Source: Streptomyces sp. CB01580 (lineage in GTDB: Bacteria; Actinomycetota; Actinomycetes; Streptomycetales; Streptomycetaceae). From it: 64,000 bases of DNA. The notes under the pieces are model-generated. The model saw nothing but the letters and a program-made list of their open reading frames with translations. It had not been told where the DNA came from and did not search any database. Position 1 is the stretch's first letter, and every line of letters begins with the position of its first letter. Made by a program: the position numbers and the translations under genes. Of this stretch, positions 47,845 through 50,486 are shown in pieces. The stretch is taken from NCBI RefSeq assembly GCF_001905795.1, contig NZ_LIXJ01000016.1, forward strand, positions 63,550 through 127,549, written 5' to 3'.

Positions 47845-48348
47845 CTACGCGCTGGCCACGTACACGGGAGCGGTCGCGTCCTTCTCCAGCAGGACCATCC
47901 GGACGCCGTCCCGTCCGGTCTCGTTGCCCACCGCGGCGTATCCAGCGCGCTGGTACAGCCGGAGGTTGTTCTCGCTGCGATGCCCGGTGCACAGCAGGAA
48001 GCGGGTGGCCGACCGCTCGTCGACGAGTCCTGATTCGGCCGCCCGCAGCAACCGGGCGCCGAGCCCGTGTCCCCGGAGCCGGGGATGGACGCAGAGCCTG
48101 CCGATCCGGCCGGTGCCGTCCTCGTCGGTGAACCCGCGGACCGAACCGACGACCTCGTCCCCCAGGCGCGCCACGAACACCAGTTGTGTGGCGATCTCGG
48201 CGCGTACCGAGTCGAGCGTCTGGACGAGCGGATCGATGCGGTAGTTGCCGTACAGCTCGGCCTCGCCCTGGAAACAGAGGTACTGAAGTTTCAGGATCTC
48301 TTCGGCGTCCTGTGCCGTCGCCGCCGAGATGATCACGCTCATGCCCAT
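47845..48348 (-). CDS. GNAT-family acetyltransferase (internal start)
   Basis: If translated separately, the 167-residue product begins MGMSVIISAATAQDAEE, with GGAGG 9 nt upstream. It shows a complete GNAT fold: LGDEVVGSVRGFTDEDG, RIGRLCVHPRLRGHGLGARLL (acetyl-CoA loop) and ENNLRLYQRAGYAAVG. Substrate unknown. There is no stop codon between this gene and the sigma-like region upstream, so it is also the C-terminal part of a longer frame. Confidence 0.8.
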   Translation of the reverse strand: MGMSVIISAATAQDAEEILKLQYLCFQGEAELYGNYRIDPLVQTLDSVRAEIATQLVFVARLGDEVVGSVRGFTDEDGTGRIGRLCVHPRLRGHGLGARLLRAAESGLVDERSATRFLLCTGHRSENNLRLYQRAGYAAVGNETGRDGVRMVLLEKDATAPVYVASA

Positions 48349-48951
48349 GTGCGCATGCCTCCGCCCACCTGATCCACCGGTTGTCTCACGCTCCCTTCCC
48401 CGGGGGCCGGGAGCGACAACCTCCGCCGCGAGCATTCTGCGCAGACATCCAAGGCATCGGGAACGGATAGGGCCCAAACTCCCCTGTGACATACCCAACT
48501 TCCCTGCGATTTCCCGGTAGGTCGGGTCCTCGGGGGCGAGCAGCGCCGCCAGCAGCCGGGCGCATCGGCCGGGCAGCCGGCCGATCGCGGCACGCAGGGC
48601 CCGGCGTTCCTCTGCGTCGAGGGCGGTCCGTTCGGGTCCATCGGACGGATCCGCGAAGGCCGCGTCGCGGTAGGGGTGTTCGCGCCGGGCGGTGCGTCGG
48701 GCCCGGCGGGCCTCCGCCCGCACGGTCTCGCGCACCCAGCGGCCGGTGTCGGCCGGTGGCCGGCCCCGCGCGAGCCGTTCCAGCAGCCGCAGCCAGACGG
48801 CCTGTTCGAGGTCGGCGGGTTCGATCGCGGCCCCGGTCGCGCAGGTGGTGGCCTCCGCCGCGGCCTCGGCGTGCACCAGCGGACGGAGGGCGTGGACGAC
48901 GGCCGCGGAAGTGGCGGTGCTCGCCGCGGCGGCAGGATCGGGAAGGGTCAT
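47845..48951 (-). CDS. ECF-sigma-like region in frame with GNAT domain (368-residue frame)
   Basis: Starts MTLPDPAAAAST. Residues about 40-110 resemble sigma region 2 (DLEQAVWLRLLERLARG, RWVRETVRAEARRARR). Residues about 115-180 resemble region 4 (LPGRCARLLAALLAPEDPTY, REIAGKLGMSQGSLGPIRSR). After ERETTGGSGGRR it runs without a stop into the GNAT domain. Either one fused protein is made, or the sigma portion is read through while GNAT starts internally. A direct sigma-acetyltransferase fusion would be unusual. A lost stop codon is an alternative. Confidence 0.7.
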   Translation of the reverse strand: MTLPDPAAAASTATSAAVVHALRPLVHAEAAAEATTCATGAAIEPADLEQAVWLRLLERLARGRPPADTGRWVRETVRAEARRARRTARREHPYRDAAFADPSDGPERTALDAEERRALRAAIGRLPGRCARLLAALLAPEDPTYREIAGKLGMSQGSLGPIRSRCLGCLRRMLAAEVVAPGPRGRERETTGGSGGRRHAHMGMSVIISAATAQDAEEILKLQYLCFQGEAELYGNYRIDPLVQTLDSVRAEIATQLVFVARLGDEVVGSVRGFTDEDGTGRIGRLCVHPRLRGHGLGARLLRAAESGLVDERSATRFLLCTGHRSENNLRLYQRAGYAAVGNETGRDGVRMVLLEKDATAPVYVASA

Positions 48952-49061: not shown

Positions 49062-50252
49062 TCACCTGGCGGCGAAGTCCGCCGCGGCGAGAAGGGCGGT
49101 GTCCGGGTTGTCGGCGAAGATGCCGTCGATCCCCGTCTCGAAGTACGTCCGGAAGGCGCCGAACGCGTCGCCGTACGCGGCGGGGTCCGTGCCGCGCCGG
49201 AAGTCGGCCGGCAGGAAGGAGTTCTCGTTGCGCATGGTGTACGGGTGGAGGACCAGGCCATGGGCGTGCGCGTCCCGCACCAGGGTGGTCGGCCCGGTGA
49301 GCCGCCCGGAGGCGTCCTTGGGGATGATCAGGTCCAGGGTGGGTCCTATGCCCTGGGCGTAGGAGGCGATCCACTTCAGCCCCTCGGGCTTCACCAGGTC
49401 GGCGACGGTGCGCGGGTCGCCCGACGCGACGAAGTCCCAGGGCCGCTCGGACGGCCCGGAGAGCAGGACGACGCCCGGCGTGGCGACGAGCCGGGAGAGT
49501 CGCTGGATGCTGCTGGGCTCGAAGGACTGGAGGATGAGCGGCGCGTTGCGACGGTGGCGGTTGTAGCGGCGCAGCAGCTTGGCGAGGGGCTCCTCCAGGC
49601 CGAGGCCCAGACCTCGGAAGTAGGTGGGGTGCTTGGTCTCGACGTACAGCCAGACCGGCCTTCCGCGCCGACGGCCCTCGCGGTCGGCCCAGCGCAGGAC
49701 CTCCTCGAAGGTGGGGACCTCCCAGCGGCCGTCGTAGAGCGTGTTCTTCTGCCGGGTGCCAGGGATGCGCTCCTTGGCCCGCAGCGTCTTCAGTTCGGCG
49801 AGGGTGAAGTCCTCGGTGAACCAGCCGGTGAGCGAGACCCCGTCGACCGTCTTGGTGGTCCGACGGCTCACGAACTCGGGGTGCGCGGCGACATCGGTGG
49901 TGGCGGTGATGTCGTTCTCGTGACGGCAGACGAGATGGCCGTCCTTGGTCGGTACCAGGTCCTGCTCGATGACGTGCGCCCCCATGTCGAGCGCGAGCTG
50001 GTAGGAGCCCAGGGTGTGCTCGGGCCGGTAGCCGCTGGCGCCCCGGTGCCCGATGACGGTGGGCACCGGCAGGTCGAGGCGGAAGCCGTGTCCCGTGCCC
50101 GGCCGGCCCGTCCGTTCGGCGGCGTCGCGGCCGGTCGTGCCGGCGGCCTCGGCCGTTCCGCCGGCGAGTCCGAGGGCGGCCGTGCCCAGGACGGCGGCCC
50201 CCGCCCCCAGCATCGTTCTGCGGCCGGGACCCGCCTGCGCGCGCTCTGTCAT
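49062..50252 (-). CDS. Secreted glycerophosphodiester phosphodiesterase
   Basis: 396 residues starting MTERAQAGPGRRTML behind GAGGAGCATTC. The N-terminus is a Tat-type signal (RR, then hydrophobic LGAGAAVLGTAALGLAGG, cleavage after AEAA). The GDPD core has HRGASGYRPEHTLGSYQLAL and EQDLVPTKDGHLVCRHE, the metal and active-site His/Glu/Asp set, then VWLYVETKHP and IDGIFADNPDTALLA. It hydrolyses glycerophosphodiesters to glycerol 3-phosphate outside the cell, so it may feed phosphate or carbon supply. Confidence 0.93.
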   Translation of the reverse strand: MTERAQAGPGRRTMLGAGAAVLGTAALGLAGGTAEAAGTTGRDAAERTGRPGTGHGFRLDLPVPTVIGHRGASGYRPEHTLGSYQLALDMGAHVIEQDLVPTKDGHLVCRHENDITATTDVAAHPEFVSRRTTKTVDGVSLTGWFTEDFTLAELKTLRAKERIPGTRQKNTLYDGRWEVPTFEEVLRWADREGRRRGRPVWLYVETKHPTYFRGLGLGLEEPLAKLLRRYNRHRRNAPLILQSFEPSSIQRLSRLVATPGVVLLSGPSERPWDFVASGDPRTVADLVKPEGLKWIASYAQGIGPTLDLIIPKDASGRLTGPTTLVRDAHAHGLVLHPYTMRNENSFLPADFRRGTDPAAYGDAFGAFRTYFETGIDGIFADNPDTALLAAADFAAR

Positions 50253-50486
50253 GAATGCTCCTCGCGTGTGATGTCTCGCACCTGTCGGACGCGGGCCGAG
50301 CGTAGGCAGTCGTACCGTCGAGGGAGCGGCAGCCGGACGAACTTGGCGCAAACACGTGTCAACGTCCGGTATCCGTTGGATGAACCCGACGTGCGGTCTG
50401 CGGGTACCCGCGAGTATCGTCCTCACCTGCATGGACCGTCACGATCCCGCGCCCCGGCCGGCCCGGCCGCTACACCGGAGGAACCG

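Follow-up and report, generated by a model that had tools for sequence, protein, structure and literature searches.

In the analyzed 64,000-nucleotide stretch of Streptomyces sp. CB01580 (the window), a gene for an ECF-like sigma factor continues without a stop codon into a gene for a GNAT acetyltransferase. We consider it very probable that these are two separate tandem genes, which were joined in the lineage of the window by one T-to-G base change that converted the stop codon TAG to GAG. The locus resembles a usual pair of genes in which a putative fusion arose recently and by accident. The conserved cluster to which the two genes belong, with a glpQ-like gene upstream, is better supported by the comparison of relatives than the fusion itself.

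The joined frame and its two halves

The features are listed in the coordinates of the window:

48951 to 47845, minus strand: joined sigma and GNAT frame (368 codons; starts with ATG at 48951 and stops at 47847-47845)
48388..48951, minus strand: putative sigma-70/ECF-like gene, codons 1-188 (TIGR02937 match; in the S. atratus clade the frame ends at the next codon)
48385..48387, minus strand: codon 189, site of the lost stop (GAG in the window, TAG in the relatives L031-L035 and L112)
48340..48364, minus strand: strongly conserved GNAT start region (ribosome site, spacer, ATGGGCATG; mean identity ~0.96 over the 19 bases ahead of codon 204)
48358..48362, minus strand: GNAT ribosome-binding site GGAGG (GGAGG in 100/109 loci)
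48346..48348, minus strand: ATG of residue 202, most likely the native GNAT start (ATG in 109/109 loci)
47845..48348, minus strand: GNAT acetyltransferase, residues 202-368 and stop codon (PF00583 and PF13673 above cut-off; GNAT fold in the predicted model)
49062..50432, minus strand: glpQ-like glycerophosphodiester phosphodiesterase gene as a listed frame, located upstream in the same direction (its true start is probably within this frame)
50353..50385, minus strand: PHO-box-like triple 11-nt repeat upstream of glpQ (noticed by eye, then tested in relatives)

The initial annotation described a sigma-factor-like frame of 368 codons that runs without a stop into a GNAT acetyltransferase, and such a frame is present on the minus strand, in the order ECF-like sigma half, disordered linker (approximately residues 176-204) and complete GNAT domain. 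It should be noted that the length of this frame is, by itself, no signal, because the DNA is GC-rich, long mechanical frames are listed on both strands of this region, and only 1-3 stop codons interrupt the joint frame in those relatives whose two genes share a frame. The structure predicted from 31 rows (mean pLDDT 74.5, pTM 0.45) contains a helical half, a stretch with pLDDT below 50 at residues 176-204, and a GNAT half; the low-confidence stretch may represent a flexible linker between two folded halves.

Residues 23-174 match the NCBIfam model TIGR02937 (sigma70-ECF) with 51.6 bits, compared to the curated cut-off of 42.9. Thus, the annotated sigma regions 2 and 4 were recovered at the level of this model, and not by the Pfam models of the individual regions: Sigma70_r2 scored 16.7-18.0 bits (gathering cut-off 24), and for region 4, Sigma70_r4 and Sigma70_r4_2 scored 11.8 and 10.3 bits (cut-offs 24.1 and 25.7, respectively). 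The sigma assignment therefore draws on the NCBIfam match, on the order of regions 2 and 4 and on the conservation of the family. We regard this half as a putative, ECF-like sigma-70 factor, which would bind core RNA polymerase and direct initiation.

The GNAT domain starts at about residue 204 and matches PF00583 with 52.6 bits (cut-off 20.7), in agreement with the full GNAT fold that had been annotated. With the predicted model as a query, the best 50 PDB matches listed by Foldseek were all acetyltransferases by title, so this search was uninformative on the sigma half. The second half is a clear GNAT acetyltransferase, with a predicted acetyl-CoA-dependent activity. The genome of the window yields 95 PF00583 matches with E values of at most 0.001; GNAT genes are therefore common neighbours.

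Stop codons and GNAT starts in relatives

Relatives were collected in two ways. A protein search of 61 genomes yielded some match at E 0.001 in 60 of them, many of which were unrelated GNATs or other sigma factors, and loci were taken from the 30 best places, including that of the window itself. From a scan of the genome contigs of 84,980 species, the best 80 of 433 relatives were kept; because these were ranked by contiguous match, the set is biased towards loci whose two genes share a frame. Altogether, 110 loci were compared, 109 of which contain both genes (the remaining one is L019). The two sets overlap slightly, with some genomes present in both, and 106 of the 109 junction sequences are distinct.

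In each of the 108 other loci with both genes, the sigma frame stops before GNAT codon 204. The stop, TAG or TGA, is located between -26 and -132: TAG at -54 in 41 loci, TGA at -66 in 27, TAG at -45 in 19, and elsewhere in 21. All five nearest relatives, those of the S. atratus clade (L031-L035), have TAG where the window has GAG. The window falls within this clade (support 0.999), the five other members of which include S. atratus JCM 3386 and S. gelaticus, and is placed as the sister of S. atratus JCM 3386 with weak support (0.51). Over the 60 bases ahead of codon 204, the window and L031 differ at two positions, -53 and -45, the latter being the first base of the stop codon. When 392 genomes of the genus were scanned (an even sample of a larger group that included the genome of the window), a pattern search detected the junction stretch (within 3 mismatches) in two other genomes, both with TAG in frame with the sigma gene. 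Since the nearest relatives keep TAG, one base away, a single T-to-G change is enough to open the junction, whether it is fixed, polymorphic or erroneous. The lineage of the window is represented by one assembly, so a polymorphism or an error is not separable from a fixed change.

The ribosome site ahead of the GNAT domain is present as annotated, with GGAGG 9 nt from the ATG of residue 202, and it is conserved in relatives: GGAGG, as in the window, is found in 100 of the 109 loci, AGAGG in six, GAAGG in two and AGGGG in one. Codon 202 is the likely native GNAT start because it is ATG in every locus, whereas codon 204 is ATG in 107 loci and ATC in two. The mean identity of the 19 bases ahead of codon 204 is 0.96 (38 non-redundant loci; also in the set of 28 loci), compared to 0.83-0.84 for third positions sampled further into the GNAT gene and for bases -33 to -20. 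The second domain thus keeps an independent start, ribosome site and ATG(202), in the window as well as in the relatives. In L019 (genome G003, 1353-1536), the GNAT leader and the GNAT gene come immediately after glpQ, with no sigma gene between them; no sigma homologue was found in this locus at E 1e-8, and the only sigma-like match at E <0.01 lies past the GNAT gene, on the opposite strand (2e-5, 32% identity). This arrangement indicates that the GNAT gene stands alone in at least one genome.

The initial annotation had proposed either a true fusion, linking transcription initiation to acetylation, or two overlapping products, and had suggested a comparison of stop positions in related genomes, in which a stop between the domains and an independent GNAT start would indicate the simple loss of a stop. 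The comparison points to such a loss: a stop codon lies between the domains in 108/108 loci, the GNAT has a conserved start region, and at the stop codon the window is one base away from its closest relatives. A conserved sigma-GNAT fusion family was rejected in view of the stops, with no other fused locus among the 108. A ranking by contiguous match would favour true fusions; still, none appeared among the 80 loci selected in this way.

Neither half looks decayed. For the window compared to L031, dN/dS is 0.31 in the sigma core and 0.15 in the GNAT domain. Where at least 93% of the other rows agree, the window has one deviating residue in the sigma half and three in the GNAT half (E218, R293 and Q334), within the range of 30 relatives (0-5 in each half). 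The dN/dS of the sigma core is 0.31-0.45 in pairs that include the window versus 0.15-0.29 among other clade members, which is a weak hint, from a small sample, that selection on the sigma half has been relaxed or has changed.

Several other features of the region were recorded. The GNAT start region (48340-48364, minus strand) contains an imperfect palindrome, CATGC-N8-GCATG, and a 24-nt block of this region has a single site in the genome of the window (up to 3 mismatches). In 107 of 109 loci, a mini-frame of five codons ([AG]TG, four codons, TGA) runs across the GNAT start and ends on codon 204; its conservation is inseparable from that of the start region, which it overlaps. An alternative GNAT start at -27 (GTG in 91 loci, ATG in six, TTG in three, other triplets in nine) is possible in some relatives and was rejected as a general start, given the nine loci with other triplets and an in-frame stop at -24 in L025. 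The window alone folds a stem between the two genes; a conserved hairpin at this place had no support from RNAalifold across the 38 non-redundant loci (-13.7, covariation term +0.36). Consensus scans of the gene pair found no promoter-like site and one terminator-like site, inside the GNAT coding region and on the other strand (mean of 0.4 in shuffles). Among plasmid records, no place covers 80% of the query, and a literature search for a sigma-GNAT fusion returned no relevant match.

A conserved cluster behind a PHO-box-like repeat

Wherever both were found, the sigma gene and the GNAT gene are neighbours, and glpQ is located upstream, in the same order and on the same strand, in all 107 two-gene loci where it was found; in the two loci without it (L038 and L063), the sigma gene is at the contig end. 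Of the 77 loci with sufficient sequence ahead of glpQ, 58 have the PHO-box-like repeat there, versus 0/77 on the opposite strand, a descriptive count because the regular expression was shaped on the repeat of the window and a few relatives. A generic PHO-box pattern produced 11 matches in the whole window, compared to 5.2 expected, none of them at the repeat upstream of glpQ. We take the family name glpQ from the likeness to SCO1565 (glpQ1) of S. coelicolor and, judging by gene numbers and order, presumably the three genes are orthologues of SCO1565, SCO1564 and SCO1563.

Judged by the comparison of loci, glpQ, the sigma gene and the GNAT gene form a conserved co-directional cluster behind a PHO-box-like repeat, and this cluster suggests that phosphate starvation raises the sigma factor and the acetyltransferase together in Streptomyces. 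In S. coelicolor, glpQ1 is induced by phosphate starvation via PhoP, with four footprinted repeats; the part of this report that describes PhoP dependence gives it for glpQ1 only (PMC7866108). SCO1564, a sigma factor, and SCO1565 are listed among phosphate-starvation-like expression profiles (PMC2267785). The Euclidean distance of SCO1564 in that study (0.10) is smaller than the mean over all genes (0.134), which implies that the shape of its profile was the reason for its listing; SCO1563 is absent from Table 1 of the same paper. SCO1564 was also placed in inferred germination networks (PMC3902916), and sco1563 is described as a GNAT gene with changed expression after a change in supercoiling (PMC6637917). 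This cluster with its PHO-box-like repeat, the sigma factor of which is poorly studied, is the part worth following.

Weighing the readings of the open junction

The arrangement can be accounted for as follows. The ECF-like sigma and GNAT genes, in tandem behind glpQ, are probably co-transcribed on phosphate starvation, with PhoP probably switching on glpQ, and the sigma and GNAT genes by run-on. In relatives, the ribosome would leave at TAG or TGA, and the GNAT would be initiated at its own site. In the lineage of the window, a T-to-G substitution would have changed the sigma stop TAG to GAG, and because the 45-nt spacer happens to keep the frame and has no stop, ribosomes translating the sigma gene would run on into the GNAT gene. 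The ribosome would pass through 15 spacer codons and produce a 39.6-kDa fusion that replaces the free sigma factor, while the internal start (GGAGG, 9 nt, ATG 202) should still be usable and yield a free 18.1-kDa GNAT. The genome as assembled is therefore likely to be able to make both the fusion and the free GNAT.

The raised dN/dS of the sigma half in pairs with the window counts against this explanation, as does the fact that the lineage is known from one assembly. What remains in doubt is whether the stop was truly lost, and recently, or whether that assembly contains an error. An error of sequencing or consensus, with a genome that truly reads TAG and no fusion, is unlikely, although it deserves to be kept in mind: the open junction is unique to one assembly (82 contigs) among the 109 loci, and a single base carries the whole effect. 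However, the assembly is 99.99% complete with 0.11% contamination, and the change is a substitution, not a change in homopolymer length. The junction is a clean worked case of how, in GC-rich DNA, the loss of one stop can generate a frame that passes for a multidomain protein, and it calls for caution in annotation pipelines and in surveys of domain architecture.

A bifunctional protein maintained by selection, in which the acetyltransferase is brought to RNA polymerase and initiation is linked with acetylation, would fit with two intact domains, a flexible linker and genes that are always neighbours where both are found. We consider this very improbable, because none of the 108 other loci is fused, the GNAT start site is retained, gene order is kept where the frames differ, and L019 has no sigma gene; the association of neighbours could stem from shared regulation alone. 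It is just as improbable that the window encodes a fixed, functional fusion, i.e., a sigma factor of a phosphate-starvation cluster covalently tethered to the neighbouring acetyltransferase. If it were true, the acetyltransferase would be carried to promoters by RNA polymerase, and a single base change would have given rise to a bifunctional transcription factor, as a natural experiment of very recent date; with one base in one assembly, the fusion is of little weight unless confirmed. Readthrough of the stop in relatives, at some rate, might also occur, in which case the fusion would be an old minor product that became constitutive in the window. Both genes are in one frame in 80/80 of the best-ranked loci, which speaks for such readthrough, but the ranking by contiguous match selects for exactly that, and in the less filtered set (28 other loci from the search of 61 genomes) the genes are in one frame in 14 and in different frames in 14. 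As the identity of the stop (TAG or TGA), its distance (-26 to -132) and the frame all vary, and the RNA alignment contains no convincing structure, programmed readthrough is unsupported and we give this reading scarcely any credence.

The loss of a stop between two tandem genes, our preferred reading, can be compared to known systems. The GNAT half resembles two stand-alone GNATs, PaiA (1tiq), which has a similar GNAT fold by Foldseek (TM by target 0.77), and YpeA (2pdo), which matches in sequence (E 1.4e-4); identity to both is below 25%. The closest likeness in arrangement is in S. coelicolor, where SCO1564 and SCO1563 lie beside SCO1565 (glpQ1), with the same annotated functions and neighbouring gene numbers, on the assumption of orthology stated above; there, they are two genes, whereas the window has one open frame. 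ECF sigma factors with a fused C-terminal domain are known as well, e.g., ECF41 (PMC3426412), in which, as in the window, sigma regions 2 and 4 are followed by a further domain in one chain. In ECF41, the fused domain defines a widespread family, whereas the fusion in the window is found in one of 109 loci, with the stop codon one base away.
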